This document shows positions 4,853 to 36,633 of a DNA stretch of 64,000 bases, piece after piece (the first letter of the stretch is position 1; the number at the start of each line of letters is the position of its first letter). The stretch comes from Rathayibacter iranicus NCPPB 2253 = VKM Ac-1602 (lineage in GTDB: Bacteria > Actinomycetota > Actinomycetes > Actinomycetales > Microbacteriaceae). The DNA lies in assembly GCF_003149025.1 (NCBI RefSeq), contig NZ_QGDV01000001.1, positions 434,001 to 498,000 on the forward strand, written 5' to 3'. The position numbers and the translations under genes were made by a program. Under the pieces are notes generated by a model. It was not told the origin of the DNA and did no database searches. It saw nothing but the letters and a program-made list of their open reading frames with translations.

Positions 4853-4879
4853 TGGACGTTCGAGGACGTGGTCGTCGAC

Positions 4880-4915: not shown

Positions 4916-4922
4916 GCGCCGA

Positions 4923-8290: not shown

Positions 8291-8928
8291 GCGGGCTGTT
8301 CGTCACCCTGGAGGGCGGAGACGGCGCGGGCAAGACCACCCAGGCCCGATTGCTCGAAGAATGGCTGGCGGCGCGCGGCGAGACAGTGGTGCGCACGCGG
8401 GAGCCCGGCGGAACCGACGTCGGCGTCCAGATCCGCGAAATCGTCCTGCACCATCGCGGCGAGATCGATCCGCGCGCCGAGGCGATGCTCTACGCCGCTG
8501 ACCGCGCCCAGCACATCGGTACGCTCGTCCGCCCGGCAATCGAGCGGGGTGAGGTGGTTGTGCAGGACCGGTACATCGACTCCTCCGTCGCCTACCAAGG
8601 CGCCGGACGCGTGCTCGATGCAGGCGAAGTTCGGGCGCTCTCGGAGTGGGCGACGCACGACCTGCGTCCCGATCTCACGGTGCTGCTCGATCTGGACCCC
8701 TCCCTCGCTCGCACGCGCCTCGATTCGGCCCGCACCCGCTTCGACCGGTTGGAGGCCGAGAAGGAGGAGTTCCACGAGCGCGTCCGACAGGCCTTCCTCG
8801 CCATCGCCGAGGCTGATCCCGAGCGGTTTCTCGTGGTCGATGCCGCACTCTCCGTCTCCGTGATCGCCGAGCAGGTGCGCGCCCGGGTCGTGGCGCTCCA
8901 GCGGCACACTGTCAGGGCCCGCCGTTAA
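8287..8928 (+). CDS. tmk: dTMP (thymidylate) kinase
   Basis: Phosphorylates dTMP to dTDP for DNA synthesis. 213 residues from a GTG overlapping the topA stop (GTGA). The P-loop is EGGDGAGKTTQ (about residues 9-19). TREPGGTDVG and QDRYIDSSVAYQGAGR are the dTMP-binding and DR(Y/F) motifs of bacterial Tmk. The lid region is TRFDRLEAEKEEFHERVR. The order topA-tmk-holB is standard for Microbacteriaceae. Confidence 0.95.
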   Translation: MSGLFVTLEGGDGAGKTTQARLLEEWLAARGETVVRTREPGGTDVGVQIREIVLHHRGEIDPRAEAMLYAADRAQHIGTLVRPAIERGEVVVQDRYIDSSVAYQGAGRVLDAGEVRALSEWATHDLRPDLTVLLDLDPSLARTRLDSARTRFDRLEAEKEEFHERVRQAFLAIAEADPERFLVVDAALSVSVIAEQVRARVVALQRHTVRARR

Positions 8929-8938
8929 CCTGGTGCGC

Positions 8939-10105
8939 ATGAACGTCTGGAGCCACCTCGTAGGACAAGAACACGCAATCGGAGCCCTGCAGGATGCCTC
9001 CATACCCCGGGATGACCGCGGACACGAGTCGACCTCGATGACGCACTCCTGGCTGATCACCGGTCCACCCGGATCCGGCCGCTCGAACCTCGCCTACGCC
9101 TTCGCCGCCGCACTGTTGTGTCGGCGTGGGGGCTGCGGCGAGTGTCCCGACTGCCGCCAAGTCGCGGCGCGCTCGCATCCCGATCTCTCCGTCCTGACGA
9201 CTGAACGCGTCATCATCTCGATTGAGGAGGTACGTCGGCTGGTCAGCAGCTCGCAATACTCCCCCTCGATCTCGCGCTACCGCGTCATGGTGATTGAGGA
9301 TGCCGACCGAATGAGCGAACGAACCTCCAACGTTCTGCTCAAGGCACTCGAAGAGCCGCCGGAGCGCACCGTGTGGATCCTTTGCGCACCCAGCGAAGCC
9401 GACCTCCTGCCCACGATCCGCTCCCGGACACGCTCGGTGCGCCTCCGGGTGCCAAGCGTTGACGACGTGGCTGGGCTGCTACAGCGTCGCGACGGCGTCG
9501 ACGCAGCGACCGCGGAACGGGCTGCTCGTCAGGCGCAAAGCCACATCGGAATGGCGCACAGGCTCGCGACCGATGCGAACGCCCGGGAGCGGCGCGAGGA
9601 GACGCTCCGGATCGCCCTGCGCCTGCGGGGGGTCTCGGACGCAGTCCTCGGAGCGGCCCGCATGATCGAGGTCGCGACCGAGGACGCGAAAGCGATCACC
9701 CTCGAGCGCGACGAGGTGGAGCGGCAGCAGGCTCTGCGCTCCCTCGGCGTCGAGCCCGGCGGGACGGTGCCTGCGCAGCTCCGCTCGCAACTGCGGGCGC
9801 TCGAAGAGGACCAGAAGCGGCGGGCGACTCGCAGCCTCCGCGACGGTCTCGACCGGATCCTCGTCGACCTGCTCTCCCTCTATCGCGATGTGGTCCGCCT
9901 CCAGCTGGGGGCGCCGGGGGGAGTGATCAACGAGGAGGTGCGGCCCGAGATGAGTGCCCTCGCCGACTCCACCTCGCCCGAGCGCACCCTGGACGTACTC
10001 GACGCCGTTGGCGCTGCACGTCAACGGATCGACGCCAACGTCTCCCCGGTGCTTGCCCTCGAGGCGATGCTGGTCGTCGCCGCTCGCCAGGCGGTGGCAG
10101 CATGA
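8939..10105 (+). CDS. holB: DNA polymerase III delta' subunit
   Basis: A clamp-loader subunit working with DnaX and HolA to load the beta clamp. 388 residues. WSHLVGQEHAIGAL opens the AAA+ fold. A P-loop-like GPPGSGRSNL has Arg where an active ATPase has Lys-Thr, as expected for non-hydrolysing delta'. The zinc module has four Cys in CRRGGCGECPDC. EDADRMSERTSNVLLKALEEPP is the Walker B/SRC-adjacent region. I prefer the ATG at 8939 (MNVWSHL), though a GTG two codons earlier is equally open. Its stop overlaps the next ATG. Confidence 0.92.
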   Translation: MNVWSHLVGQEHAIGALQDASIPRDDRGHESTSMTHSWLITGPPGSGRSNLAYAFAAALLCRRGGCGECPDCRQVAARSHPDLSVLTTERVIISIEEVRRLVSSSQYSPSISRYRVMVIEDADRMSERTSNVLLKALEEPPERTVWILCAPSEADLLPTIRSRTRSVRLRVPSVDDVAGLLQRRDGVDAATAERAARQAQSHIGMAHRLATDANARERREETLRIALRLRGVSDAVLGAARMIEVATEDAKAITLERDEVERQQALRSLGVEPGGTVPAQLRSQLRALEEDQKRRATRSLRDGLDRILVDLLSLYRDVVRLQLGAPGGVINEEVRPEMSALADSTSPERTLDVLDAVGAARQRIDANVSPVLALEAMLVVAARQAVAA

Positions 10106-11628
10106 CGCGCGCTCATCGCTCCTGGGCGCTCGCGGCCCTCGTCGTGGTCGTCTCGCTCCTGACGGCCTGCTTCACGACCGGTTCGACCGTTGCGACGACC
10201 TCGACGCCGGCGCCGCAGAGCGTTGACGCCGACCTTGCCCGCTACTACTCGCAGGTCCTCGTCTGGGACGACTGCGGCGGCGGAGCCTTCTGCGCCGATG
10301 CGACGGTCCCGCTCGATTGGGATAACCCGGCCGGTGACACCGCGTCGATCGCGCTTGTGCGCCGGCCAGCGACGGAGGGCCCCGCTCTCGGCTCCCTCCT
10401 GATGAACCCCGGCGGGCCGGGCGGCTCGGGCGTCGATTTCATCCGCAAGAGTGCCTCGTTGGCTGTCGACACCCGGCTCGCTGCCCGCTACGACGTGGTC
10501 GGCTTCGACCCCCGCGGCGTGGGTGCCTCGACTGCGGTCTCGTGCCTCGATGCTGCCGGCCTCGATTCCTACCTCTACGACATCACACCGGGCGAGCGAG
10601 GTAGCGACGAGTGGATCCAGGCCCAGCGGACCTCGGCTGCGGCCTTCGCCGCCGGGTGCGAGCAGCGCAGCGGTCCCCTTCTGCCCGAGGTGGGCACGCC
10701 CAACGCCGCCCGCGATCTGGACGTTCTGCGCGCGGCTCTCGGCGACGAGAGACTGAACTACTTCGGGTACTCCTATGGCACCTACCTCGGCGCCACCTAC
10801 GCCGGCCTGTTCCCGGAGCGTGTCGGACGACTCGTGCTCGATGGAGCGATCGACCCTGCGGCGACCTCGTTCGATGTCCTCCGCGAGCAAGCGAAAGGCT
10901 TCGAGAGAGCGCTGCGGGCCTACCTCGCTGACTGCCTCGGCTCCTCGGGCTGCCCCTTCACCGGCTCGGTCGACGAAGCGATGACGCAGCTACACTCGAT
11001 GCTCGCGCAGGTCGACGAGTCCCCGATTCGGGCGAACGACGGTCGGAAGCTCGGAGCGAACACGCTCTGGACGGCAATCATCTATCCGCTCTACGACGCG
11101 AACGGATGGCGCCCGCTGAGCGAGATGCTCTCGGATGTGCGCCGTGGCGGCGCCGAGATCGCGTTCCAGTATGCCGACGCCTACAACAGCCGCAGCGCCA
11201 AGGGGACCTACTCGGGCAACAGCACAGAGGCGTTCCTCGCCATCAACTGCATGGATTACTCGTTCAACGCCGACACCGCCTCAATGCGTGCCGACGCCGC
11301 CGCTCTCGAGGAGGCGGCGCCCACCGTCGGTCGGTACCTCGCGTACGGCGACATCGCCTGCGGCGAATGGCCGGTCGCTTCTCAGGGCTCGCGCGCGCCG
11401 ATCCGAGCGGAGGGCGCTGCACCGATTCTCGTCGTCGGCACGACGAAGGACCCCGCGACGCCCTACATCTGGGCGCAGGCGCTCGCGGGCCAACTCGCGG
11501 ACGGCCACCTCATCACCTACAACGGCCAGGGTCACACCGCCTACAACAAGTCGAACTCGTGCGTGAACGACGCGGTCGACGCGTACCTGATCGACGGCAC
11601 CGTCCCTGAGGAGGATCCGCAGTGCTGA
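10102..11628 (+). CDS. Secreted alpha/beta-hydrolase lipoprotein (SlpD/TAP-like peptidase family)
   Basis: 508 residues. A signal peptide ends in the lipobox LLTAC with lipidated Cys at about residue 23, so the protein should sit on the outer face of the membrane. The fold shows the oxyanion region MNPGGPGGSGVDF, YDVVGFDPRGVGAS and the nucleophile elbow GYSYGTYLG (catalytic Ser). The catalytic Asp is probably in VVGTTKDPATP and the catalytic His in YNGQGHTAY. This is the arrangement of Streptomyces tripeptidyl aminopeptidases and the S33 group with a C-terminal TAP-like domain. The likely role is trimming of extracellular peptides; the substrate is not known. It overlaps holB by 4 bases and the TetR gene by 7. 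Confidence 0.85.
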   Translation: MTRAHRSWALAALVVVVSLLTACFTTGSTVATTSTPAPQSVDADLARYYSQVLVWDDCGGGAFCADATVPLDWDNPAGDTASIALVRRPATEGPALGSLLMNPGGPGGSGVDFIRKSASLAVDTRLAARYDVVGFDPRGVGASTAVSCLDAAGLDSYLYDITPGERGSDEWIQAQRTSAAAFAAGCEQRSGPLLPEVGTPNAARDLDVLRAALGDERLNYFGYSYGTYLGATYAGLFPERVGRLVLDGAIDPAATSFDVLREQAKGFERALRAYLADCLGSSGCPFTGSVDEAMTQLHSMLAQVDESPIRANDGRKLGANTLWTAIIYPLYDANGWRPLSEMLSDVRRGGAEIAFQYADAYNSRSAKGTYSGNSTEAFLAINCMDYSFNADTASMRADAAALEEAAPTVGRYLAYGDIACGEWPVASQGSRAPIRAEGAAPILVVGTTKDPATPYIWAQALAGQLADGHLITYNGQGHTAYNKSNSCVNDAVDAYLIDGTVPEEDPQC

Positions 11629-12242
11629 CCGAACAGGAGCGACCTCGCGAGCTGCCCGGGCTCCGTGAGCGCAAGCGGCTCGCGACTCGGCGGGCGATCG
11701 AGATTGCCGTTCTCCACCTCGCCAGCGAGCGTGGGCCGGAGCGGGTGACGATCGAGGACGTGTCGAGGGCCGCGGATGTCTCGACCCGGACCTTCTTCAA
11801 CTACTTCGCCTCGAAGGAGGACGCTCTCGTCGGCACACTTCCGGTGATCTCCGACGAGACCGCCGCCGCATTCGTTCTTGGAGAGGGGCCGGTGCTCGAT
11901 GATCTGCAGCGCGTCTTCGTCGCGGTCATGGAGCAGCTTGAGGACGACCGCGAGTTGCACGTACTGCGGCGTGCTCTCTTCCGCGAGCAGCCCCACCTGG
12001 TGGGCCTCAAGATCGCGGGGATGCGCGAGTTCGAACTCGTCATTGAGGGATTGGTCGTCGAGCGCCTTCAGCGTGATGACGACGACGCCGAACGAGCGCG
12101 CAGCCACGCGAGGATGCTGACCCTTCTGGGTCTTGCAGCGATGCGGCATGCGTGGGCAGCCTGGGTCGACCATGACGGCCGGGAGTCTCTGTCTGGTCGG
12201 ATCTCCCGCTCCTTCGAGGAGTTGCGCGACGTCTTGGTCTGA
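11622..12242 (+). CDS. TetR-family transcriptional regulator
   Basis: 206 residues. The N-terminal helix-turn-helix runs RKRLATRRAIEIAVLHLASE, then VTIEDVSRAADVSTRTFFNYFASKEDALVG (residues about 35-65), a very clean TetR signature. The C-terminal ligand domain is unspecific. It starts within the end of the hydrolase gene, so the two are probably co-transcribed. It could control that hydrolase or its own operon, but no operator palindrome was identified. Confidence 0.88.
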   Translation: MLTEQERPRELPGLRERKRLATRRAIEIAVLHLASERGPERVTIEDVSRAADVSTRTFFNYFASKEDALVGTLPVISDETAAAFVLGEGPVLDDLQRVFVAVMEQLEDDRELHVLRRALFREQPHLVGLKIAGMREFELVIEGLVVERLQRDDDDAERARSHARMLTLLGLAAMRHAWAAWVDHDGRESLSGRISRSFEELRDVLV

Positions 12243-25437: not shown

Positions 25438-26084
25438 CCTGATCTCCGCGGTTGGCCGCGGCACCCGCGAGTTCCTCTTGGCTTACGGGCCGGCGACTGT
25501 CTAGTCGGCCGGTTCCGGCTGCCGTTCGACACTCCGGAGTTGTATCGGATGATCCCTGAGACCATGTGGACGCCCACCGCCCACGGCGACGTCCGCGCGG
25601 CCGTGGATGTCGCCGGGTTGATCGGCATGATGCATCGGACGCCGCATGATCCTGCGCCTCTCCAACAAGGCCGCCTGGGCCGCAGCCCTCGCAGCGATCG
25701 GTCGGTTCCGCGCTCACGCGAGAGCACCAATTCGCGCCAAGAACCCTCATCCCCGCGCGCCACCCGCAAGACCACGGCCTGGAAATCCACTAACGCACCG
25801 ACACGCGACCCAACTGTCGTACCCAGCGGACAGAATCAGACCCAAACAAGCACACCGTCGCGCCCGAGACCCCCCACGAACTATCGAGGCTAGGACGTTT
25901 CGGAGACGGACCTTCCGACTCCAGATCGTGCCGCACGCAGAGAGATCTATGCGTTCGTATCGCACTTCGAGTACGACGTTTTGCGCCTGAGTTGCACAGC
26001 ACAGATCGAGATGAGAGCATCTGACTGCGCGATGAGATGTCCTCTGTTTCACGGGGACGCGCGCCGGAGTACCGGGGAGGGCAC
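25438..26084. other. Gene-poor stretch at the left edge of the island
   Basis: About 650 bases without a credible gene. Frames here have irregular composition, no ribosome-binding sites and no recognisable motif on either strand. It is probably decayed DNA between the IS3 remnant and the first island gene. Confidence 0.5.
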
Positions 26085-26342
26085 ATGAACGAAAAGATTC
26101 CGCACGGCGATACCGAGGCATACAAGGATGCGAGTAGCGGTTCGGACGTCGATCGCTCTCGCAAAGGGCGCGGCATCACGCTGGTCGCCCTGGCGGTTTC
26201 AGCAGTTGGCCTCGCAGTAGTGCGCGGAGGGACGGCCGAGACCTGGTTCGATTATTGCACCACAATCATCCTCGGAATCTTAGCGCTTGTCTTGCTCATT
26301 ACGGGTGTCCGCGCGCTCCGTATGCGACAACGTTCGAGATAG
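26085..26342 (+). CDS. Small two-helix membrane protein of unknown function
   Basis: 85 residues from an ATG preceded by GGGGAGGG. The first 38 residues are polar and charged. Two hydrophobic segments follow, GITLVALAVSAVGLAVV and CTTIILGILALVLLITGV, with a short loop and a basic C-terminus (RALRMRQRSR). No family recognised. It sits 200 bases before the RiPP operon, has similar lower-GC composition, and runs in the same direction. Small two-helix proteins beside peptide-antibiotic clusters are sometimes self-protection proteins; that role is only a guess here. Confidence 0.55.
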   Translation: MNEKIPHGDTEAYKDASSGSDVDRSRKGRGITLVALAVSAVGLAVVRGGTAETWFDYCTTIILGILALVLLITGVRALRMRQRSR

Positions 26343-26413
26343 TGAGTACGAGGCCCGCTTCTTTCATCGAAGGCCGAAAATCGGGGTCTAATCACTAAAT
26401 CTGCTTAGCTCAG

Positions 26414-26443
26414 TTGTGGACGATTCTTACATGGCTATATATT
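26414..26443 (+). promoter_or_regulatory. Candidate promoter of the RiPP operon
   Basis: TTGTGG at 26414-26419 is followed, after 16 bases, by TATATA (26436-26441), or after 18 bases by TATATT. It lies in an AT-rich 196-base gap with no gene, about 100 bases before the first biosynthetic gene. It is the best promoter-like match there. Confidence 0.45.
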
Positions 26444-26538
26444 AAGCGTAACGAATTTCGTCTTTACTACCTTCAAACACGCCCACTTCTATCGCGTGTG
26501 CTTCATCATGCCCTCCGCTTACTCAAAGGAATTTAGGA

Positions 26539-27606
26539 ATGGCTTCGGAACTTGGCTCAAGTCTGCGCATCGACGATGAAGCAGTTGTCGGGAGATACGT
26601 TGAGGCGTGGATCACGGGACGTGTGCTTGTGCCCGGACAAGCGATCGGCTTCGCAGAGGATCAGGATAGCGCCGCAATGGCAGTCGAGACCCTCGTGGAA
26701 GACGACGTTTTGTTTGTGCCAACAGGTGTTAATGTTGCTGACTTTGCCGGAGCGACTATTGAGTACGACGGTAGGTTCGGTGCGGCTGGTGACGAACTAA
26801 CAGTCTGCGGTCATACGGTTGAGCTTCAGGACTACCTGGCTTCTGGTTTCATAGATATTATTGGACCGACGTGCGCACGGATTCAGGACCTTCGCGAGTG
26901 GGACGCATTCCTCGCGGATGCTGACGAAGCATATTCAGGCGGACCGTTCCCTCGTCAATTCTTAGAAGATGGACTCCTCCTCGCCGGGTCGTTCGCTTTC
27001 TTTGCGGAATCAAGCAACAGTCAAGCATTCCGGCCGTACTTTTCGGCGGATGGGACAATATTTGGAGGGCCTCAGGGCGAAAGTTTGGACGCTGTCGCCT
27101 TACAAGCTCACCGAAATAATCTGTCTGGACCGGTGGCTGAGTTCGAGGGATCCATACCGCGTCCGAACCTCATCAACGATTGTAGCACAAGGCCGTGGCT
27201 TGGCCGGTATCTTCGTATATTCGATCTTTTGAAGCGAACCCATCGCGACACGGATGCCCGAATCGTTGGCTTCGGTCACTCAATTCTCGACGACGGAAAT
27301 GACGCCGCAACCCCTTCCTATCATGCACCGTACCTATCGTTTATCGGAGAAGACCTCGTTCTAGAAGATCTTGCGACAGGACGGCGGTTCAAAGTCCCGG
27401 TCCGAACTGCGGCTGCGATTGAAGCCCTCATGACTTCGTCCAAGCCGACACGCTCGGCGGAGCGCCTCGCCGAATGCCTCGCCATCGAAAAAGATCGCGC
27501 GTGGTCAATACTCGACGAGGTTGCTAGCCGGTTCGGGTTCAAATCTCCAGCCTCGCTCCAGGCCCATTGGGCGGTCTCCACCTCTGCGACTGGGCTTGCG
27601 CAATGA
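26539..27606 (+). CDS. mpaB: Daptide-type RiPP recognition protein (RRE-like C-terminus)
   Basis: Likely binds the leader of the three precursors and presents them to the modifying enzymes. 355 residues with no enzyme motif in the first 260. Residues about 263-335 (APYLSFIGEDLVLEDLATG, then RRFKVPVRTAAAIEAL and SAERLAECLAIEKDRAWSIL) look like a small three-strand sheet plus winged helix. This is the fold of RiPP recognition elements (PqqD-like). It is first in the operon, with AAAGGA 8 bases before the ATG, and its stop overlaps the aminotransferase start. The assignment to the MpaB family rests mainly on gene order and size; the RRE reading is an inference from the pattern. Confidence 0.7.
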   Translation: MASELGSSLRIDDEAVVGRYVEAWITGRVLVPGQAIGFAEDQDSAAMAVETLVEDDVLFVPTGVNVADFAGATIEYDGRFGAAGDELTVCGHTVELQDYLASGFIDIIGPTCARIQDLREWDAFLADADEAYSGGPFPRQFLEDGLLLAGSFAFFAESSNSQAFRPYFSADGTIFGGPQGESLDAVALQAHRNNLSGPVAEFEGSIPRPNLINDCSTRPWLGRYLRIFDLLKRTHRDTDARIVGFGHSILDDGNDAATPSYHAPYLSFIGEDLVLEDLATGRRFKVPVRTAAAIEALMTSSKPTRSAERLAECLAIEKDRAWSILDEVASRFGFKSPASLQAHWAVSTSATGLAQ

Positions 27607-28889
27607 CGCAGCACGCCTACATGCGAACGGGCGGAGCGTGGACTTCGCTAGTGCCGGCGTCCCGCTCGACCAGCGTGCTCGACTCTCAGATGGCGGTAGG
27701 TGCACACGGCGTCCACGTAGAAATGGCCGATGGGCGGAAGCTTCTGTGCGCGACGAGTGGACTCTGGAACGTGCCACTTGGGTATGGGAACTCGGCCATT
27801 GCCGACGCAATCACGGAATCGCTTCACCGTGCCTCCTACCTCACGCTATTCAGGTCAATGCACTCCTACGCCGCGGACGCAGCTACTGCTCTACTGGATT
27901 TCGTCGGCGACGGATTCGATCGTGTCATCTTCTCAACTTCAGGCGGCTCTGCTAACGATGCCGTGATGAAGCTGGCTCGCCACTTCTGGGTTCTCCGTTC
28001 GGATGCACAACGTCGGATCGTGGTCGGTCTCCTGGGGAGCTACCACGGAACAACCTACGGGAGCCATGCGCTCAGCGGCGATGACCTGCACCAGACGACG
28101 TACGGGGTGGATCGCCGCTCGATCCGACACGTACCCTACGACGACGACGGTGAGAAACTGGCCGCGTTGATGGCTCGCGAAGGTCATCGTGTCGCCGCGA
28201 TCGTGCTGGAACCGGTTCTTGGCTCGGGCGCCGTGGAACTACCGGCCGCCTTTCTATCTGAGGTGTTACGGCTTAAGGAGCGTTACGGTTTCCTTCTAGT
28301 AGCTGACGAAGTTGCCACAGGCTTTTACCGGGCTGGTCAGAAATTCGCCTCGCAGGATTGGGCGATATCACCGGACATTCTTATTCTCTCGAAGGCGCTG
28401 ACGAATGGGACCTGTGCCGCATCGGCGGTATTGATTGCGCCTTCCGTCAGCGCCGAATTTGGGGAGCAGGGCGCGACGTTTGTTCATGGCGAAACGCAGG
28501 CCGGTTCTCCGGCGAGTTGCGCCGCGATCGTTGCAACGCTCGCGGAGATGTCCCGACTCGACATCGCCGGAAAGTCAGCACATCTTGCTATCAAGCTCAA
28601 CGGCGTCGTCGAACGGCTCGCGGCATTTTCGTTTGTCGACCGAGTCACCGGCCGCGGATGCATGCGAGGGATCTACCTCAAGTCGAAAAGGGGTCACCTT
28701 TTGTCGCCCACACAGGTGGCGTCTATCGTCGACTCTGTCCGGGAAGCCGGAGTGATAGTCCAGCCAGGTCCATCCTGCATTCAGCTTCTCCCACCCTTGG
28801 TCCTCGAGCGTAATCATCTGGAAGAACTTGAGATAGCACTTCGTGAGGGGCTTCGGCGCATTGATCGGAGGGTCGATTTCGATGGTTGA
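27603..28889 (+). CDS. mpaD: Daptide-type class III PLP aminotransferase
   Basis: Predicted to transaminate the C-terminal ketone left after Thr oxidation and decarboxylation, giving a peptide ending in an amine. 428 residues of fold-type I class III. Visible are STSGGSANDAVMKLARHFW (cofactor phosphate region), GLLGSYHGTTYGS, LVADEVATGF (Asp235 to the pyridine N), the Schiff-base Lys264 in LSKALTNG, and THGxT-like FVHGETQAG. The ATG at 27603 overlaps the mpaB stop (ATGA). Its stop lies inside the next gene. Resemblance to ornithine/diaminopropionate-type enzymes is generic; the peptide substrate is inferred from the cluster. Confidence 0.85.
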   Translation: MTQHAYMRTGGAWTSLVPASRSTSVLDSQMAVGAHGVHVEMADGRKLLCATSGLWNVPLGYGNSAIADAITESLHRASYLTLFRSMHSYAADAATALLDFVGDGFDRVIFSTSGGSANDAVMKLARHFWVLRSDAQRRIVVGLLGSYHGTTYGSHALSGDDLHQTTYGVDRRSIRHVPYDDDGEKLAALMAREGHRVAAIVLEPVLGSGAVELPAAFLSEVLRLKERYGFLLVADEVATGFYRAGQKFASQDWAISPDILILSKALTNGTCAASAVLIAPSVSAEFGEQGATFVHGETQAGSPASCAAIVATLAEMSRLDIAGKSAHLAIKLNGVVERLAAFSFVDRVTGRGCMRGIYLKSKRGHLLSPTQVASIVDSVREAGVIVQPGPSCIQLLPPLVLERNHLEELEIALREGLRRIDRRVDFDG

Positions 28890-30033
28890 TATGTCCTGGT
28901 CGCCGACGCGACTGTATGTCGGCCACGGAGTTGCAGACTCGGTTATCAGTTCGCTGGTTCGAGGTCGGGTGACACTTATCGTCACGGACGCCTTCAATGC
29001 ATTTCGGACGGCGACGCTCCAGGCCCATCTTCAGAGCGGGATGGTAGTCATCGATGGTCCAACTCTCGGCTCGATCGAGCGCATATATCATGAGATAGGC
29101 ATGCGGTCACCGGGAGCGATTGTCGCAGTCGGCGGCGGCACCGTGATGGACTCGGCAAAGCTGGCTTTCGCCGTGGCGGCTAGCGGTCGCTCATTTACCC
29201 AGTTCAGACGTGTCTTGCAATGCGGTGGCGAGCACGCTACGCGGCGCGACCTACGCCGTTCGGGAGGCATTGTTGTTGCCGTTCCGACGACGGTCGGTAC
29301 TGCGTCAGAGGTGAGTCCCATCGCGTGTGTGACGACTGCCGACGGACACCGCCTTGTCTCGGGAGACGATCTCCGCCCAGATTTCGCAGTAATCGACTCC
29401 ACCCACTTTGACTCGTTATCAGGCCGAAAAGTCCGCGACGGCGCCTACGAGATATTATTGCGGATAGCAGCTGTTGCAATATCCACGACTGCGAGTCCTC
29501 TGACCCGTCGTCGTGCCGTCGATTTGGGTGAGCGAATTGTACGAGCATGCATACAACTCGCGGAGGAGGAGGCTCCCGATGCCCGCACCGATATTGCCCT
29601 AATAGGCGCCGAATCGAAGACATCCTTCACGGGATTCTCTAGCGATCCGCACGCAATTTACCACTGGTATTTTGCAAACGAGCTCGCCCACGCCGGTGCC
29701 CTGTCGAAGGTGGAAGCGACCTCAGCCCTGGCTCCGACAATCTGGCGACTGCTGGAGCAAGGCCACCTCCGACTTGGTGACCAGGACGCCTTGCGCGCCT
29801 TCTGGTCCACAATGAGGCGCATGCTCCCACTCGAGTCGTCCCGGGCTAGCGAGTGGATTTCGGCATTCGCGCAGTACTTGTCGATTGTGCCGCCGAAAAT
29901 TACTGCAAAGTTGGCGAGCCGGGCGGCCGACAGCTGTATCCGAGCCTGGGGCGGCTCAAATATGGCCCTTGCCGACTGGGATGCGGTAAGTATTCGCGCG
30001 CTGTACGAGGAAACTCTAGTCTCAAATTCTTAA
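28882..30033 (+). CDS. mpaC: Daptide-type dehydrogenase (iron-ADH / DHQ-synthase fold)
   Basis: Predicted to oxidise the beta-hydroxyl of the precursor's C-terminal Thr, leading to loss of CO2 and a methyl ketone. 383 residues. Nucleotide-binding motifs are IVAVGGGTVMDSAKLAF (residues 80-96) and VPTTVGTASEVSPIA. Candidate metal residues are D186 (RDGAYE), H257 and H261 (HAIYH) and H270. The position where iron ADHs carry a second His after the Asp is E190 here. A GGAGG 10 bases before the ATG at 28882 sets the start, an 8-base overlap with mpaD. About 70 bases follow before the first precursor gene. Confidence 0.78.
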   Translation: MVDMSWSPTRLYVGHGVADSVISSLVRGRVTLIVTDAFNAFRTATLQAHLQSGMVVIDGPTLGSIERIYHEIGMRSPGAIVAVGGGTVMDSAKLAFAVAASGRSFTQFRRVLQCGGEHATRRDLRRSGGIVVAVPTTVGTASEVSPIACVTTADGHRLVSGDDLRPDFAVIDSTHFDSLSGRKVRDGAYEILLRIAAVAISTTASPLTRRRAVDLGERIVRACIQLAEEEAPDARTDIALIGAESKTSFTGFSSDPHAIYHWYFANELAHAGALSKVEATSALAPTIWRLLEQGHLRLGDQDALRAFWSTMRRMLPLESSRASEWISAFAQYLSIVPPKITAKLASRAADSCIRAWGGSNMALADWDAVSIRALYEETLVSNS

Positions 30034-30106
30034 GAATGTTTGATACTTCTGATTTGTGCCGACATTCGTTGGCGCTGAGCTTTAGACGATATAAAGGAGG
30101 TGAATT

Positions 30107-30250
30107 ATGAAATCAGTTACTGCTTCGGAAATTTTGAAGGACTCGTTCGTCGAGCTCGAGGTGATGGACGCTCCATCCGACGATAGTTGGTGGCAGGGCT
30201 TGCTCGGAGGCATCGGTGTCATCGGGACTGTCGCAATTATCGCGACCTAA
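30107..30250 (+). CDS. mpaA1: Daptide-type precursor peptide 1
   Basis: 47 residues. The leader MKSVTASEILKDSFVELEVM ends in the motif MDAP (residues 20-23). The candidate core starts SDDSWWQGLLGG and ends IGTVAIIAT. It is hydrophobic, Gly-rich and without Cys, with the C-terminal Ala-Thr expected for conversion of Thr to a dimethylated diamine. AAAGGAGG at 30093-30100 lies 6 bases before the ATG, a consensus ribosome-binding site shared by all three precursor genes. Leader cleavage near MDAP is inferred from the shared motif. Confidence 0.85.
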   Translation: MKSVTASEILKDSFVELEVMDAPSDDSWWQGLLGGIGVIGTVAIIAT

Positions 30251-30295
30251 GCCGTTTTGCTACCACGAAAACTAATATCGAAAAGGAGGTGAAAT

Positions 30296-30427
30296 TTGAC
30301 AATTCAAATGGAAAATCTTGGATTTGAGGCTCTCGAGTCGATGGATGCGCCGGACGACGGATTCGACTGGTTCCACGGATTTAGTGTCGGAGTCGGCCTC
30401 GGCCTCATCGCGCTCAGTGCCACCTGA
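30296..30427 (+). CDS. mpaA2: Daptide-type precursor peptide 2 (TTG start)
   Basis: 43 residues, MTIQMENLGFEALESMDAP then a core starting DDGFDWFHGF and ending GLGLIALSAT. It shares the LExMDAP leader motif and C-terminal Ala-Thr with its neighbours and also lacks Cys. The start is the TTG at 30296, because AGGAGG (30284-30289) is 6 bases away, the same spacing as in the other two. The internal ATG at 30308 is 18 bases off. The core is the most aromatic and acidic at its N-terminus of the three. Confidence 0.84.
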   Translation: MTIQMENLGFEALESMDAPDDGFDWFHGFSVGVGLGLIALSAT

Positions 30428-30472
30428 GTCGAGTTCATCGACTCATCTATACCATAGTAAGGAGGTAGACCA

Positions 30473-30598
30473 ATGAACAAAACCGAGATGCTTAGATTCG
30501 ATGAGCTTGAGGTCATGGACGCGCCACTTGAGTGGTGGCAAACCGCCGGGTATGTCATCACGGCCGTGGGCGGTCTCGCCGCTATCGCGGCGACGTGA
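30473..30598 (+). CDS. mpaA3: Daptide-type precursor peptide 3
   Basis: 41 residues, MNKTEMLRFDELEVMDAP followed by a core starting LEWWQTAGYV and ending GLAAIAAT. The leader shares ELEVMDAP with precursor 1, and the core shares the tryptophan pair and the C-terminal Ala-Ala-Thr ending. An AAGGAGG ends 6 bases before the ATG. The core is short (23 residues after the motif) and would form a single hydrophobic helix. A strong hairpin follows the gene. Confidence 0.85.
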   Translation: MNKTEMLRFDELEVMDAPLEWWQTAGYVITAVGGLAAIAAT

Positions 30599-30621
30599 TC
30601 GTCTGATTACGATCTAACCAA

Positions 30622-30658
30622 CGGTGCGGACGGTCTGCCTCAGCGACCGTCCGCACCG
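30622..30658 (+). terminator. 14-bp hairpin after the precursor genes (attenuator or stabiliser)
   Basis: CGGTGCGGACGGTC (30622-30635) and its exact complement (30645-30658) enclose a 9-base loop. No U tract follows. It lies between the precursors and the methyltransferase. Partial termination or 3'-end protection here would give more precursor than enzyme mRNA, a common layout in RiPP clusters. Confidence 0.6.
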
Positions 30659-30697
30659 GCAAAATAACGCACCACGGTTAAAAGGAAGCTGAAACAA

Positions 30698-31480
30698 TTG
30701 TTGACTGTTGCGTCGGAAAACCTACTGTCAGCGTGGGCGGTAGCTGCCGATGTTGAAGAACTATACGGGCCGGCTGGATCACGATTCTACGACTCGACAA
30801 CTCGTGGCGATCGGTCCGAGGTGCGCGAGATTATCAGGTTCGTTCGTAGATACCACGGCGACGTTCTCGACCTTGCGGCGGGCTCTGGACGTCTGACACT
30901 TCCGCTTCTGGCTATGCAGCGCACAGTGACGGCCCTCGACTCATCGCCCGAGATGCTGGAGATCTTAAGGCGCCGAGCACGATCTCAGTCCGAGCGTGGG
31001 CTCATACTCTCGAAGCAAGACATGACCACCTTCACGCTCCCCGGCTCATTCGCCGTAATTGTGCTCGGTGCGACTTCGGTCACTCTTCTCGACAGATTAG
31101 ACCGTGCAAAGCTGTTTGCTCGTGTCCGCGCCCATATGGAACCAGGCGGACGCTTCCTGCTATCGACCACCGACACGGAAGGTGCCGAGATGGCGAGTGC
31201 TTTCGAAGGAACCTTGCATACCGCTAGGGGAGTGCCCATGCCGTATTACTTCTCGCAAGAGGTTGATCGTAGTGCTGGGCGGAGGCTTGTCAACTTTCTT
31301 GTGCCGCCAACCCGTGGCTCTATTGACCAGGCGAAGGTATTCACGAGCATCGTCAACCTGCTCTCGAGCGCACAGCTGGCATCCGAACTTCAGCGCGCCG
31401 GTTTCGACGTTCGCTCTTCTACGATCGTGAAAGCGAACGGCGCCGGCAGCCGCGGACTAGTCCTTTTGGAATGCTCTTGA
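30698..31480 (+). CDS. mpaM: Daptide-type SAM-dependent N-methyltransferase
   Basis: Predicted to dimethylate the new C-terminal amine of the peptides. 260 residues of class I methyltransferase. The SAM motif is VLDLAAGSGRLTLPLLAM (residues 56-73), followed by TALDSSPEMLEILRRRA (acidic loop), SKQDMTTFTLPGSFAVIVLG and HMEPGGRFLLS. The start is a TTG at 30698, 9 bases after AAAGGAAG; a second TTG follows directly. It overlaps the YcaO gene by 10 bases. The peptide substrate is inferred from the cluster type. Confidence 0.83.
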   Translation: MLTVASENLLSAWAVAADVEELYGPAGSRFYDSTTRGDRSEVREIIRFVRRYHGDVLDLAAGSGRLTLPLLAMQRTVTALDSSPEMLEILRRRARSQSERGLILSKQDMTTFTLPGSFAVIVLGATSVTLLDRLDRAKLFARVRAHMEPGGRFLLSTTDTEGAEMASAFEGTLHTARGVPMPYYFSQEVDRSAGRRLVNFLVPPTRGSIDQAKVFTSIVNLLSSAQLASELQRAGFDVRSSTIVKANGAGSRGLVLLECS

Positions 31481-32724
31481 TCGCCGCGATGACGACGCTT
31501 GGGCCAAGTGCTGGGCTCGCCGAACGGTATTCATTACTTGCCCCGCGAGACGATTTCCCCCTGTGGCAGATGATGGTCAGTCTCGCTCCTACCCGCGAAA
31601 GCGAGCCTGTCGATGATTCGGAGAGTCTGCCTCTGGTGGGTGCAACAGATGTGTCCCGTCGCCGCGCGATCCTCCGCGCGACCGGTGAGGCTGTCGAGCG
31701 CTGGGCTCTACGTCCCAGCCCTTGGTCGGGCCCGACCTTCGAACGTGGCCGTAGAGTGGAATGGGCACAGTTCGGGCTGGCAAACCACGACCTTGGGCGG
31801 AAGATTCTTGTCGGCAAAAACATCTCGACATCGGAACCAATTACCATTCCAATCGAGCTGGTGGAGTACGATCAGGCGAACACTGGATTGGCTCGTGCCG
31901 CGCAGGGCAATTTTGAGCCCACTCCCTCCGGTGCGGCGGCGGGAGAGACACTCGACCAGGCAGTAGTTTCAGGCGTTCTTGAGCTTCTTGAACGGGACGC
32001 ATTCATGGTCGCGTGGGCGAGGCAACTCAGGATCGAACGAATCGATGCACACACTGTCGGCAGCGTTGGAGGAGCCAACCCAATCAAACTCGTTGACCTC
32101 GCGCGCCGTATGGGACTTGAGCTAGTGGTAGGCAACCTCGGCTGCGATGTTGATGGAGTAAAGGCAATTATTGCGATCTGTCTTGATCGATCGGCCCAAC
32201 TTGGCGCCGTCGGTTCAAAAGCTTCGACGTCAGTTGCTAATGCGGTGGAGGGTGCAATCCAAGAATCGCTTCAAGCCCTTCATCTTGGCCGGGTAATTCG
32301 GCGAGCGGTTGAAGGAGGTCAACGAACTACCAGCGGGTTGCCGAGGACAGAAATGGATAGGGCGCGGTACTGGTCCGGGACCGACGCTTACGCTGTTCTC
32401 GATAGATGGACACAGTCGTTTGTTAATCCGAGTTCGATTGGTGGACCCGCAAGTCGACCAACCCCGACCCCTCTTGAGTCGACGATCCGCTGCGGATTTG
32501 AGCCGATTGTTCTCGATTTGTCTGCGCGTCTACCGGCTCGAGTACGAGAGATCGGGTGGCACGCGGTGAAAGTGCTCTGCCCTGGGCTCCAGCCGCTGAG
32601 GCTTGACGAGACCCTCTCGTTCAGTTGGCTTCCATCGCGTCTCCTCTCGGCTGAGCGCCGAACCGGCTATGCAAGCCCTCTCGCCGAAGGTGAGGTCTTC
32701 GATGTCCCGCATCCGCTTGTTTGA
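31471..32724 (+). CDS. YcaO-family cyclodehydratase-like enzyme
   Basis: YcaO proteins use ATP to activate a peptide backbone amide, giving azolines, thioamides or amidines. 417 residues carry the ATP/Mg site: RAILRATGEAVERWAL (residues 65-80, GEAVER), PSGAAAGETLDQAVVSGVLE with LLERDAFMVAW (152-182), and VEGAIQESLQ (259-268). The C-terminus is FDVPHPLV, not the PxPxP tail of classical azoline-forming YcaOs. No TfuA, ThiF-like E1 or flavin dehydrogenase partner is present. To my knowledge YcaO is not one of the core daptide enzymes, so it points to an extra modification. It overlaps genes on both sides, so it belongs to the operon. Confidence 0.85.
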   Translation: MLLIAAMTTLGPSAGLAERYSLLAPRDDFPLWQMMVSLAPTRESEPVDDSESLPLVGATDVSRRRAILRATGEAVERWALRPSPWSGPTFERGRRVEWAQFGLANHDLGRKILVGKNISTSEPITIPIELVEYDQANTGLARAAQGNFEPTPSGAAAGETLDQAVVSGVLELLERDAFMVAWARQLRIERIDAHTVGSVGGANPIKLVDLARRMGLELVVGNLGCDVDGVKAIIAICLDRSAQLGAVGSKASTSVANAVEGAIQESLQALHLGRVIRRAVEGGQRTTSGLPRTEMDRARYWSGTDAYAVLDRWTQSFVNPSSIGGPASRPTPTPLESTIRCGFEPIVLDLSARLPARVREIGWHAVKVLCPGLQPLRLDETLSFSWLPSRLLSAERRTGYASPLAEGEVFDVPHPLV

Positions 32725-34399
32725 CCGAGTTCGTGGTATGCACACGAGGGCCCGGCACGAGGCACTCCCACATCGCACTTCTGACCTCAATTTCCAGCGT
32801 CCGCAGCTCCGTGCCGGGGTGCGTATTGTGGATCAGAGGAGGACGTCGCCGGGCACGTGGCTCGTCCTGTCGCATGACGTCCCCGTAGCACGAATATCGA
32901 GTGGCACTGCAATGATTCTCGGGCAACTCGATGGGAGTTCCACTCTAGAGCAACTGACGGCATCGAACGCAGGTGCGTTCACGCTGGGCGAAATTGAGAC
33001 GTTGATCGAGAAACTGCAACGCACTGGCCTCATTGTCGGAAGTGTGGACCCAGTGGTTGCGCGTAGTCGAGTCGTCTCCTATATTCCGCCGATGACGTTG
33101 CAGATCGCGACCCGTAACGCCGCAGCTTTCTTTGCTTACGCCGCGCGTGTTACGAAAGCGCTTCACTCACGTTCTTTCCTCGTCGGCGTCGCCCTGATCG
33201 TCGTCGCAGCCTTCGGAAGCGCCATTTTTGAATGGCGCAGCTACGTCTCAATTGGCTCGGTTCCATTGAAGCCAATTACTCTGGTCGCCGTCCTCGTAGC
33301 GCTCTCGATCGCGACGTTCTTCCACGAACTTGCACATGGGTTGACACTTCAGAAGTTGGGCGGGGTTCCCCGTCGCGCGGGCTTCATGCTCTTCTATCTC
33401 GCTCCAGCTTTCTTCGTTGATGTGACTGATGGTTGGCGTCTCCCGCGGCGGTGGCACAGGGCCGCAGTTGCCTTCGCCGGCCCCGCCTTCCACCTAGTAG
33501 CAGCGAGCGCTGCGGCAGTGATTGCCGTGATCTTGCCAGGCGGTGCCGCTCGCGACGCGCTTCACATGTTTTCGTTCGCTGCTTTCTGGATCTTCGCGTT
33601 TAATCTCGTGCCGTTTGTTCGTTTCGATGGTTATCTTATCCTGATAGCGCTTTTGGACTACCCGAATCTACGCGCCGCGGCGATTGCTGAACTTAAGCGC
33701 GTGCTTTTTGCCGAAAGAAGACAACGCGACACGGCTTCGCCGGCGTGGGGACTGGCGGCGTTCGGTCTTGGATCGATTGCCTTCCCTGTATACCTCGTAC
33801 TCGTTTCGATTTCTCGCCTGCAGTCGGGCCTTGCTGGAGCTGGGGCCGCGGGAGCATTTGTGCTGCTGGGCGTTGAGACCTTCTTGGCGTATCTAATTGT
33901 GCGCGTTGTGATTCGACTCGTCCAATTCAAGCAATACAGCATTTGGCGACTGTTTGGCGGTACTTTCGTTGCGGTCGCAGCATTAGGCAGCGCTCTCGTC
34001 ATGATTCAAGTACCCATCGAACATCGCGCAGCGTGGGTTTCGGACGAGCGTGGAATCGCAATGCTGGCTCAGTCCGATTCAGATTTGATATCGTTGACTC
34101 AAGGTGAAAAGGTATCGCTAATATCTCAGGGCATTTTTTCCCAGTCAGAAGTCGGGACAGCGAGAGTATCCGGTGAAACTCCGGAAAAGGCTGACATCCC
34201 GGTTGAGAGTCTTGTGCCTATTTCGCTCCACGGCTTTACAACGAGCGGCTACCGAGTCGTCCTATCGGATGCCTCTACGGTCTCGACTGGGAAAAGTGGT
34301 ACGGCGATTATCTGGTCCGGAGAATCAGAAGCTCTAATGCAAGTGTTATTGAATCAATATGTAAGAAGCCCCGTGGAGGAGATAGCGAATTTATTTTGA
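32702..34399 (+). CDS. mpaP: Intramembrane M50-family metalloprotease with PqqD-like N-terminus
   Basis: Likely cleaves the leader from the modified peptides in or near the membrane. 565 residues. Residues about 36-115 (PQLRAGVRIVDQRR to LIEKLQRTGLIVG) look like a PqqD-like winged-helix recognition domain. After a first membrane helix, FFHELAHGL gives the zinc motif HELAH (208-212). NLVPFVRFDG (301-310) gives the third ligand Asp309. There are several more helices and a C-terminal extracytoplasmic-looking beta domain. The ATG at 32702 follows AAGGTGAGG and overlaps the YcaO gene by 23 bases. Daptide clusters encode such a protease. Confidence 0.8.
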   Translation: MSRIRLFDRVRGMHTRARHEALPHRTSDLNFQRPQLRAGVRIVDQRRTSPGTWLVLSHDVPVARISSGTAMILGQLDGSSTLEQLTASNAGAFTLGEIETLIEKLQRTGLIVGSVDPVVARSRVVSYIPPMTLQIATRNAAAFFAYAARVTKALHSRSFLVGVALIVVAAFGSAIFEWRSYVSIGSVPLKPITLVAVLVALSIATFFHELAHGLTLQKLGGVPRRAGFMLFYLAPAFFVDVTDGWRLPRRWHRAAVAFAGPAFHLVAASAAAVIAVILPGGAARDALHMFSFAAFWIFAFNLVPFVRFDGYLILIALLDYPNLRAAAIAELKRVLFAERRQRDTASPAWGLAAFGLGSIAFPVYLVLVSISRLQSGLAGAGAAGAFVLLGVETFLAYLIVRVVIRLVQFKQYSIWRLFGGTFVAVAALGSALVMIQVPIEHRAAWVSDERGIAMLAQSDSDLISLTQGEKVSLISQGIFSQSEVGTARVSGETPEKADIPVESLVPISLHGFTTSGYRVVLSDASTVSTGKSGTAIIWSGESEALMQVLLNQYVRSPVEEIANLF

Positions 34400-34425
34400 C
34401 TTGCCGGTCAACTTAAAAATATGAC
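34396..34425 (+). promoter_or_regulatory. Candidate internal promoter for the export genes
   Basis: TTGACT (34396-34401, overlapping the protease stop codon) and TATGAC (34420-34425) are 18 bases apart in the only sizeable gap of the second half of the cluster. A small hairpin GACCAT/ATGGTC follows. This would let export or immunity genes be expressed separately. Confidence 0.4.
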
Positions 34426-34472
34426 GACCATGGACTTATGGTCGGAGGATAGCATTAGGAGAAAAAATACGT

Positions 34473-35192
34473 ATGGATTTTGCAATCGAGTTTGATGAAT
34501 ACACGAAACAATACGGCTCGTCTGTTGTCGTAGATGGCTTGTCCTTTCAAGTCAACCGAGGAAGTGTCGTCGGTCTTCTTGGACCGAATGGCGCTGGAAA
34601 GAGCACGGCTATGCGCGGTCTTGTCGGTCTTTCTCATCCAACTTCCGGTGCCGCTCGCATTTTTGGTGAAGAATTCGCAAGGCTGTCCGAGCCAGCGTCG
34701 GTCGTTGGCGTGCATATGGATGGGTTTGGCTTTGAGACGGGGATCAGCGCGCGACGGCATCTTGAGATTTGTCGACTTGCGGCGGGGGTGTCGAAAGCTC
34801 GGGTCGGTGCGGTACTCGAGGAGGTAGGCCTTCGGGAACATGCGCGTAAGCGCGTGAAGCAGTATTCGACGGGCATGGTGCAACGCCTCGGCCTGGCCGT
34901 TGCTCTCCTCGCGGAGCCGAAGATCCTGATTCTTGATGAGCCCGCCAACGGTCTGGATCCCGAAGGTATTCGTTGGCTCCGCAAATTTATACGAAGTTAT
35001 GCAGAGCGAGGTGGGACGGTGCTCGTGTCGAGTCACCAACTTAGAGAACTTGAGCAGATCGTTGACGAGGTGGTCGTTATGAACAAACGTCTCCTTTACT
35101 CCGGTGCACTCGCAAATCTTCTAGGTAAAAAGGATGCGTCTTTGGAGGATAGATACTTTGACCTTGTTGACTCTTCGATAGCGGGGTCTTGA
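34473..35192 (+). CDS. ABC transporter ATPase (peptide export or self-protection)
   Basis: 239 residues. Walker A is GPNGAGKSTAMRGL, the signature is YSTGMVQRLGLAVALL, Walker B is ILILDEPANGLDP, and the switch region is VLVSSHQLRELEQ. It resembles CcmA/BcrA-type ATPases (VDGLSFQVNRGSVVGLLGPN) used by antibiotic-resistance and bacteriocin-immunity transporters. AGGAG lies 11 bases before the ATG. With the next two genes it forms a three-component ABC system, as in other daptide loci. Confidence 0.88.
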   Translation: MDFAIEFDEYTKQYGSSVVVDGLSFQVNRGSVVGLLGPNGAGKSTAMRGLVGLSHPTSGAARIFGEEFARLSEPASVVGVHMDGFGFETGISARRHLEICRLAAGVSKARVGAVLEEVGLREHARKRVKQYSTGMVQRLGLAVALLAEPKILILDEPANGLDPEGIRWLRKFIRSYAERGGTVLVSSHQLRELEQIVDEVVVMNKRLLYSGALANLLGKKDASLEDRYFDLVDSSIAGS

Positions 35193-35197
35193 TTCAG

Positions 35198-35923
35198 ATG
35201 GTAAGCGCAATTCGTTCTGAATGTTTGCGATCAATCAGCGGGCTCGCGTTTCTCGCTGTCCTCGCCTTCGCAGTCATGGTTCCTGCTTTACTGCTGAACT
35301 CCCTCGTCGGCTCGAACCTACTTGTGTCGCTGCCTTCACCCGACGCTTCAGCGCGAGTTTTCAGTGTTATGGCCTCGATGTTCGTTGTGTCGATGTTTGT
35401 CGGCAGCTACAGTATCACCAGAGAATATTTCTATGAGTCACTCGATCGATCAAGAGTGCTTCTCACCCTTAAGAAACTCTTTTGGGCTAAGGTGATTGCG
35501 TCCGTGCTAACCTCTATCGCCCTGACTGCCGTGTTTGGAACGGCATGGATAGCCGTTTCTGTGTGGATCATGAACAGTCAGGGATTAACTTTTACGTTCT
35601 CGTTTGTGGTCGTTAAGATATTTGTTGGTTCCCTTGCGGTAAGCGCAATCGGCGCGGTGATTGGACACGGCGTAGGGTGGGCCGTCCGCAACTACTATGT
35701 CGCATGTGCACTGGTCATGGCGGTTCCACTGGCTGCAGAATTGCCCCTGCTGGTTAACGCTCCGGGTGTGGAAAGATTCCTTCCGTCCGGTGCCGCCGCG
35801 GGCGTTGCCAATGTGATTGGACTTGACGTGCTACCCGCTCTCGCGGCTCTCGCAGTGTCTGTTAGTTGGGCTGCGGGTGCGACTGCGGTAGGGCTGACCC
35901 TCGCGTCGAGGAGGCAAGTATGA
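35198..35923 (+). CDS. ABC transporter permease 1 of the peptide cluster
   Basis: About 241 residues with six hydrophobic segments, for example SGLAFLAVLAFAVMVPALLL, MASMFVVSMFVGSYSI and VVVKIFVGSLAVSAIGAVIG. SYSITREYFYESLDRSRVLL is typical of ABC-2-type permeases paired with BcrA-like ATPases. The start is the ATG at 35198, or a TTG at 35189 that overlaps the ATPase stop; neither has a strong ribosome-binding site. It ends in an ATGA overlap with the second permease. Confidence 0.78.
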   Translation: MVSAIRSECLRSISGLAFLAVLAFAVMVPALLLNSLVGSNLLVSLPSPDASARVFSVMASMFVVSMFVGSYSITREYFYESLDRSRVLLTLKKLFWAKVIASVLTSIALTAVFGTAWIAVSVWIMNSQGLTFTFSFVVVKIFVGSLAVSAIGAVIGHGVGWAVRNYYVACALVMAVPLAAELPLLVNAPGVERFLPSGAAAGVANVIGLDVLPALAALAVSVSWAAGATAVGLTLASRRQV

Positions 35924-36633
35924 TCGTGCGACAGTTGCGGACCGAACTTGTTCGGACCATTGTCGATCGCGCAGTTCGAGGCTCTGTAGTCTTCGCTACC
36001 TTGCTGGGGATAAGCGTCGTGTTTGTTATTCCGGATGGTCTGTCTCAAGCTCCAAGAGAGGTTACGGAGGCGCTGTTCGCTGGCCTCCGAACAACAGTAG
36101 TGTCGAATGGAGTGCTTCTTTCCGCCGTCTACGGATCCTTCCGACTCACATCCGAACTCAGCAGCGGAGTCGTGTCGCGACAACTGATGTACTCGCGAAG
36201 GATCACCCTCTACCTCTGTAGAGGGTCTTTCGCCCTTATCGGTGGCGCCGCAATCGGGGCTGCAGGCTGCGCGGCAGGTCAGGCAACTTTCTGGTTGGCA
36301 GCGCGGCGCTGGGAGGTAGACCTTGGGCTCGTGTGGGCTGCTGCCGTGTTGGGAGTTGTCTCGGCAGCGTGGGGCTTCGGCCTCGGCGCCGCAATCGGCA
36401 ATCACTTTGCAGCACTCTTTATTGTCCCTCTCTCGTTGGCCGCAGCGATTCCGATCGCCTCCATTAACCAGGACCTCGCCCGAGTTACGCCATTCGGATG
36501 TCAGCTAGCGTTGATTGACACAGATTCTGGCCTGTGGCTTGACCCGTCGAACGGAGTTTGGCTCGCGGTTGCTTGGGGCATTATGGCAGTGGTTGTGGGA
36601 GGGGTAGTGTTTCGGTTGCGGGATGTGCGATAG
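35920..36633 (+). CDS. ABC transporter permease 2 of the peptide cluster
   Basis: 237 residues. GAGGAGG precedes the ATG at 35920, which overlaps the stop of permease 1. Six hydrophobic segments include SVVFATLLGISVVFVIP, FALIGGAAIGAAGCAAGQAT and WLAVAWGIMAVVVGGVVF. SGVVSRQLMYSRRITLYLCR matches the cytoplasmic motif of the first permease, so the two look like distant paralogues forming a heterodimer. It is the last gene of the cluster. About 150 bases without a gene follow to the right IS3 remnant. Confidence 0.78.
   Translation: MIVRQLRTELVRTIVDRAVRGSVVFATLLGISVVFVIPDGLSQAPREVTEALFAGLRTTVVSNGVLLSAVYGSFRLTSELSSGVVSRQLMYSRRITLYLCRGSFALIGGAAIGAAGCAAGQATFWLAARRWEVDLGLVWAAAVLGVVSAAWGFGLGAAIGNHFAALFIVPLSLAAAIPIASINQDLARVTPFGCQLALIDTDSGLWLDPSNGVWLAVAWGIMAVVVGGVVFRLRDVR

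Follow-up and report, generated by a model that had tools for sequence, protein, structure and literature searches.

The mpa cluster of Microbacterium paraoxydans, chosen by its authors for encoding only the primary modifying enzymes, gives daptides 1-3, whose leaders are cleaved after a conserved Pro and which together lyse bovine red cells (PMC10036551). The same 2023 report names YcaO-bearing daptide clusters as a major subgroup, and in 2025 each chemical step was shown with homologues from Thermobifida fusca and Streptomyces azureus (PMC12338566; journal version in ACS Cent Sci, PMC12670281). In that work (PMC12338566), carried out both in vitro and in vivo, DapB/DapC turn the C-terminal Thr into an aminoacetone by decarboxylation, DapD transaminates the aminoacetone with Lys as donor, DapM then methylates, and the YcaO enzyme DapY closes the monomethylated diamine on the carbonyl that precedes it, yielding a 3,4-dimethylimidazoline ([M-49]; in vitro with nuclear magnetic resonance, and in vivo); the DapY product formed without DapM is a 4-methylimidazoline ([M-63]), and of the four S. 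azureus precursors one stays uncyclised and carries a dimethyl-diamine end. Here we describe a related locus in Rathayibacter iranicus NCPPB 2253 (3.38 Mb in 49 contigs), found in a 64,000-nucleotide stretch of contig NZ_QGDV01000001.1 (positions 434,001 to 498,000; hereafter the window). Judged by its sequence, window segment 26539-36633 is a complete, intact daptide biosynthetic cluster with a YcaO belonging to it, and it very probably encodes a daptide pathway in which a DapY-type YcaO closes a C-terminal imidazoline. We found no open-access paper joining Rathayibacter with daptides or with YcaO, and this particular cluster may be unreported in that literature.

The genes are all on the + strand, in the order DapB, DapD, DapC, precursors A1-A3, DapM, YcaO, DapP, an ABC ATPase and two permease-like membrane proteins (Table 1), and all of the frames run without an internal stop. 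Gene content, order, intact frames and clade membership (below) are direct observations. Apart from the YcaO there are five daptide enzymes, and four of them (DapB, DapD, DapM and DapP) score above curated NCBIfam cut-offs. Because the hits to these four equivalog models are packed closely together, with frames intact and the order B-D-C-A-M-Y-P-T repeated in two genomes of the same genus, we regard the cluster as real and more than chance. The initial annotation, made from the sequence alone, had described a daptide-type cluster with Cys-free MDAP/Ala-Thr precursors, an aminotransferase, a dehydrogenase, a methyltransferase, a YcaO overlapping both its neighbours, a protease and an exporter, and every part is present where it was placed; the gene it left unnamed (26539-27606) is DapB, the RRE protein that the first step requires. 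The YcaO gene overlaps DapM by 10 bases (the DapM stop ends at 31480) and DapP by 23, counted from the likely DapP ATG at 32702 to the YcaO end. That YcaO might be a neighbouring gene unrelated to the cluster was considered and rejected, the gene order being kept in related daptide loci.

Three described systems are among the closest known to this cluster. The window cluster resembles tfDap of T. fusca in having DapBCDMP, several Thr-ended precursors, a YcaO of the same clade and an ABC exporter, and differs in that tfDap alone carries LanKC and the luciferase-like LanJ (PMC12338566); tfDap has five precursors rather than three, its YcaO ends in PHPLP rather than PHPLV, and TfDapA1 ends in Leu-Thr where the window precursors end in Ala-Thr. 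The S. azureus cluster (saDap, azuritides), whose likeness is known by description (PMC12338566), also has DapBCDMP, a YcaO and an exporter without LanKC, although it has four precursors and its YcaO is said to end in PxPxP. The mpa cluster shares the core enzymes and three precursors, but has only the primary modifying enzymes, with no YcaO, and its products end in a dimethyl-diamine (PMC10036551).

To find a reference DapY sequence, we searched for the precursor TfDapA1 (47 residues, Table 1 of PMC12338566), which matches one genome (G505) at 47/47 residues; four more related precursors adjoin, and the resulting five agree with the published tfDap count (PMC12338566). Because of this match, we took the YcaO on the same contig, which lies beside LanKC, as TfDapY of T. 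fusca. The same search in the family of another genome, G453, gave no match (0/35). A search with SaDapA1 among 392 Streptomyces-type genomes gave a single weak match (1/392, 45% identity), and the cluster containing it (L138) has no YcaO within 20 kb. The window YcaO is identical to TfDapY at 146 of 445 aligned positions (33%).

In a maximum-likelihood tree of 69 YcaOs, built after removal of L068, L113, L118 and L010 (odd length) and L104 (duplicate), the window YcaO and TfDapY fall within one clade of 43 rows with support of 100/99. Forty-one of these rows had been labelled daptide beforehand, and the other two (L102 and L103) were placed in daptide clusters by longer stretches (L140 and L141). 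A daptide aminotransferase lies in the fetched stretch for 42 of the 43; the remaining one, L058, is cut by the record end and has an annotated mpaP, such that all 43 adjoin daptide genes. The 26 rows outside the clade include the two other YcaOs of the source genome, and no daptide aminotransferase was found near L055, L056, L090-L093 or two L139 rows, the only outside rows with enough flank. The three Rathayibacter YcaOs group together with support of 100/99. Because some rows (e.g. L059 and L088) are flagged as long branches, the branching within the clade and at its base is uncertain.

Among the alignment columns that do not vary in 19 daptide YcaOs are ExxERD and an E/Q pair, all kept in the window YcaO, and the profile built from the daptide YcaOs aligns these invariant columns to MJ1094 and TruD of PDB. 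The profile matched six YcaO-type PDB entries; a phmmer search of PDB with the single window YcaO gave no match. The best NCBIfam match of the window YcaO is TOMM_cyclo_SagD, at 98.3 bits against a cut-off of 219.25, and no TIGR03882 domain was found in the YcaO or the other eight cluster proteins scanned, which leaves it outside the azoline SagD type. A thiopeptide- or SagD-type assignment was rejected on that score, on the daptide-clade placement and on the lack of a fused leader-binding domain.

The two characterised enzymes, TfDapY and SaDapY, are described as ending in PxPxP (PMC12338566), and we surveyed the C-termini of 44 daptide YcaOs (the 43 tree rows and L068), 43 of them with a closed C-terminus. 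Sixteen of the 43 finish in Pro (15 PHPLP and 1 AHPLP), and all 16 are accompanied by LanKC; the other 27 lack the last Pro (17 PHPLI, 3 PHPLV, 3 PHPFV, 2 PQPLV, 1 PHPIL and 1 YQPLI), and among them only L088 has LanKC. Most LanKC cases form one tree branch, and the link between PxPxP and LanKC is not strict, since saDap lacks LanKC yet its YcaO is said to have PxPxP (PMC12338566). Outside the daptide clade, 20 of 29 loci examined have a PHPFP end. The PxPxP tail of the two characterised enzymes is thus not general in the clade. One could imagine that, where the cluster has no LanKC, clade YcaOs ending in PHPL[IV] or PHPFV differ in their active-site tail and produce a C-terminal group other than the known dimethylimidazoline, an idea that we consider unlikely. 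A methylimidazoline or an aromatised imidazole-like ring would be examples of such a group, with the Rathayibacter trio as the simplest case, and these specific forms are similarly doubtful.

All three precursors lack Cys, carry MDAP in the leader and finish in Ala-Thr; a GGAGG ribosome-binding site lies directly upstream of each, and the daptide combination of EL/ALE..MDAP with a terminal Thr is present in 3/3. Ser and Thr positions in the cores are few and are not fixed among the three core types. These core types are kept across species: the A2 core differs at one residue between the window and two comparison loci (L049, in genome G221 of the same genus, and L051), the A3 of L051 matches that of the window at 21/23 residues, and L050 (genome G328, same family; 11706-12169), a daptide cluster lacking a YcaO, has the window's three core types. 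Since L050 has the same cores without the enzyme, the peptide set appears to stay fixed while the YcaO alters its cap.

We infer the action of each enzyme, the exact end product and the mixture of products from the characterised homologues. The DapB RRE would bind the leader motif and hand the C-terminal Thr to DapC, which would oxidise and decarboxylate it to an aminoketone; DapD would transaminate this to a 1,2-diamine, and DapM would add one N-methyl. The YcaO is then predicted to activate, at the expense of ATP, the carbonyl of the residue that precedes the former Thr (Ala in 3/3 precursors), and attack by the N-methylamine would form the 3,4-dimethylimidazoline ring; a second DapM methyl added before cyclisation would instead leave an open dimethyl-diamine end. 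DapP would cleave behind MDAP to release the leader, and export of the three short hydrophobic helical peptides would fall to the ABC proteins. By analogy, the product is most likely a set of three helical peptides with a dimethylimidazoline end (-49 Da), with perhaps part of the product mixed in as dimethyl-diamine (-17 Da). The corresponding calculated monoisotopic masses (dimethylimidazoline or dimethyl-diamine) are 2379.295 or 2411.321 for A1, 2431.232 or 2463.259 for A2 and 2312.268 or 2344.294 for A3.

This outcome departs from the initial annotation in several ways. It had proposed a basic C-terminus together with a separate backbone change; however, the published YcaO consumes the terminal amine, and the two features therefore merge into one ring (PMC12338566). 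Its three options for the backbone change (oxazoline, amidine or thioamide) did include the amidine class, to which imidazoline belongs as a cyclic member. The extra -18, -17 or +16 Da that it anticipated would be replaced by an expected shift of -49 Da from the unmodified core, or -63 Da without the methyl. It was right that ordinary thioamide or thiazole chemistry is unlikely, as there is no TfuA-like partner, no E1-like domain and no Cys. The combination of a daptide cluster with a YcaO, which it took to be undescribed, had been reported in 2023 (PMC10036551) and its chemistry in 2025 (PMC12338566, PMC12670281), and published daptides carrying YcaO-made groups (PMC12338566), which it had itself listed among the findings that would refute its reading, do exist and refute the claim of novelty. 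The role of the daptide YcaO was thus already published in 2025, and this cluster is a further example of a known system.

Several features weigh against closure of an imidazoline by the window YcaO. Its identity to TfDapY is modest, it is not in the LanKC-associated subclade to which TfDapY belongs, and its PHPLV end lacks the last Pro of PxPxP, although we did not use the missing PxPxP to exclude it because that motif is reported as a trait of two enzymes and not as a group definition. Only one of the two reference enzymes is in the tree, as SaDapY was not found in the genomes searched. The best NCBIfam match of DapC, NF041822 daptide_DH, reaches 218.8 bits, below its cut-off of 300, and the residue before Thr is Ala in the window precursors versus Leu in TfDapA1 and SaDapA1. 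The end product of each individual peptide is also not predictable, given the one S. azureus precursor in four that is uncyclised (PMC12338566).

Could the enzyme instead form azolines from Ser/Thr inside the cores, as thiopeptide-type YcaOs do? Its best NCBIfam match is a SagD cyclodehydratase, albeit with 98.3 of the 219.25 bits needed, and daptide YcaOs outside the main group are described as being of the azoline-forming, thiopeptide-associated type (PMC12338566). The window YcaO, however, groups with the daptide YcaOs and not with the azoline-like ones, which mostly end in PHPFP, and has no fused E1-like leader-binding domain, unlike the two other YcaOs of its genome; with precursors that have no Cys and few Ser/Thr at positions that vary among core types, we judge this very unlikely. 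That the enzyme places an amidine or thioamide inside the peptide by means of an outside nucleophile has precedent in YcaOs that use exogenous nucleophiles (cited in PMC12338566), but Pfam and NCBIfam scans found no TfuA-like or other partner among the cluster genes, the clade placement again points elsewhere, and the diamine made by DapB/C/D is itself the nucleophile in the characterised enzyme (PMC12338566); such a reaction seems highly improbable. There is equally little chance that the YcaO is inactive or barely expressed and that the products are plain dimethyl-diamine daptides: such an enzyme is dispensable, in that four of seven family daptide clusters have none within 20 kb, and one S. 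azureus precursor escapes cyclisation (PMC12338566), yet this gene has an intact frame overlapping both neighbours, keeps the invariant catalytic columns, appears to be under purifying selection and occupies the same position in two congeners.

Without a cut-off, the daptide_amino model matches 397 of 398 sampled genomes of the family and 14/14 controls, so only the genomes above cut-off were used, of which there are seven (7/398). Three of the seven family clusters (those of the window, G221 and G045) have a daptide-clade YcaO, and in the other four (L050, L052, L053 and L054) tblastn found no YcaO within the 20-kb stretch. A close YcaO is present in 4 of 15 genomes of the genus (window, G221, G045 and G1236; E <= 2.9e-112). 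Searching the genome contigs with the single window YcaO returned no relatives, and an alignment query recovered them. A scan of named genomes with the YcaO profile gave 35 loci, 31 of which are daptide clusters, and the four that are not (L090-L093) are the weaker matches. Thirteen Micrococcaceae loci (Arthrobacter, Paenarthrobacter and Sinomonas; L069-L075, L078-L081, L083 and L094) share with the window the order B-D-C-A-M-Y-P, with one precursor ending in Ala-Thr in most; they differ in their core types, and their YcaOs end in PHPLI and are ~30% identical to that of the window. Daptide YcaO clusters also occur on plasmids, in Streptomyces (L057 and L058) and in an oral isolate of Actinomyces oris (L059, NZ_CP116225.1, 4587-8735), where a 336-residue YcaO ending in PHPIL lies beside a two-component regulator.

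The cluster forms a GC-poor island (26001-36633), with 53-60% GC against mostly 67-72% elsewhere in the window. DNA similarity to L049 is limited to the cluster (window about 26596-36545) and does not extend to the flanks (24 kb and 27 kb of the window), which are shared with neither L049 nor L051; the L051 copy has 71-75% GC. The GC contrast and the cluster-only similarity fit movement of the whole cluster between genomes, which suggests horizontal transfer. Between the window and L049, the YcaO has a nonsynonymous divergence (dN) of 0.24 and a synonymous divergence (dS) of 1.51 over 414 codons, similar to DapP (dN 0.28, dS 1.32) and DapD (dN 0.15, dS 1.52); with dS near saturation and a simple Nei-Gojobori count, we claim only that the YcaO is clearly constrained, as expected under purifying selection. 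In L049 (6923-7747), DapM is split by an in-frame stop into 173 and 100 codons and the YcaO is intact; this may reflect an error in the sequence or a strain that naturally makes methyl-free products.

Table 1. Features of the daptide cluster in window coordinates; L049 to L054 are comparison loci.
Feature	Position	Strand	Evidence and remarks
DapB (MpaB), RRE accessory protein presenting the precursor to the dehydrogenase	26539..27606	+	NF041823 daptide_RRE 170.3 bits, cut-off 150
DapD, class III pyridoxal phosphate aminotransferase	27603..28889	+	NF041821 daptide_amino 547.7 bits, cut-off 450; PF00202
DapC, iron-ADH-fold dehydrogenase, predicted oxidative decarboxylase of the C-terminal Thr	28843..30033	+	PF00465 76.8 bits; start uncertain
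Precursor A1, 47 residues, predicted core SDDSWWQGLLGGIGVIGTVAIIAT	30107..30250	+	leader ELEVMDAP, GGAGG site upstream
Precursor A2, 43 residues, predicted core DDGFDWFHGFSVGVGLGLIALSAT	30296..30427	+	leader ALESMDAP; TTG start, alternative ATG 30308
Precursor A3, 41 residues, predicted core LEWWQTAGYVITAVGGLAAIAAT	30473..30598	+	leader ELEVMDAP, GGAGG site upstream
DapM, S-adenosylmethionine-dependent N-methyltransferase	30698..31480	+	NF041820 daptide_MTase 236.1 bits, cut-off 175; start uncertain
DapY, YcaO, 417 residues, C-terminus PHPLV	31471..32724	+	PF02624 105 bits, cut-off 25.7
DapP, intramembrane metalloprotease (leader peptidase)	32702..34399	+	NF041824 daptide_HExxH 306.0 bits, cut-off 300
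ABC exporter ATPase	34473..35192	+	PF00005 97 bits
ABC permease-like membrane protein	35189..35923	+	kept beside ATPase in L049 (76%), L050-L054
Second ABC permease-like membrane protein	35920..36633	+	matched in L049, L050, L051 and L053 of L049-L054

Three frames open upstream of the starts in Table 1: DapD from TTG 27567 (the likely start, ATG 27603, overlaps the DapB stop), DapP from TTG 32603 (likely ATG 32702) and the second permease-like protein from TTG 35866 (likely ATG 35920). DapB has no Pfam match, DapP scores 26.1 bits against PF02163, slightly below the Pfam cut-off of 27.2, and neither permease-like protein matches a Pfam or NCBIfam family.

The two other YcaO loci of the source genome are of different kinds. 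L056 (contig C5, about 4255-10467) is a thiopeptide-like cluster with a thiopep_ocin domain, a YcaO cyclodehydratase with a leader-binding domain, and two adjoining frames that match thiopeptide pyridine synthase, one strongly though below the family cut-off and one weakly. L055 (contig C17, 6659-9295) codes for a third YcaO of 878 residues, with TOMM leader-binding and SagD-type domains above cut-offs (263 and 125 bits), and the region also holds an FMN-dependent monooxygenase and an ABC ATPase.

With this cluster, imidazoline-type daptides gain an example from Rathayibacter; it does not show a new class of reaction. If the DapM split in G221 is real, that strain should make unmethylated ends. 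With a near-identical core trio present both with a YcaO (window, L049 and L051) and without one (L050), the influence of the ring on membrane activity could be compared in matched peptides.

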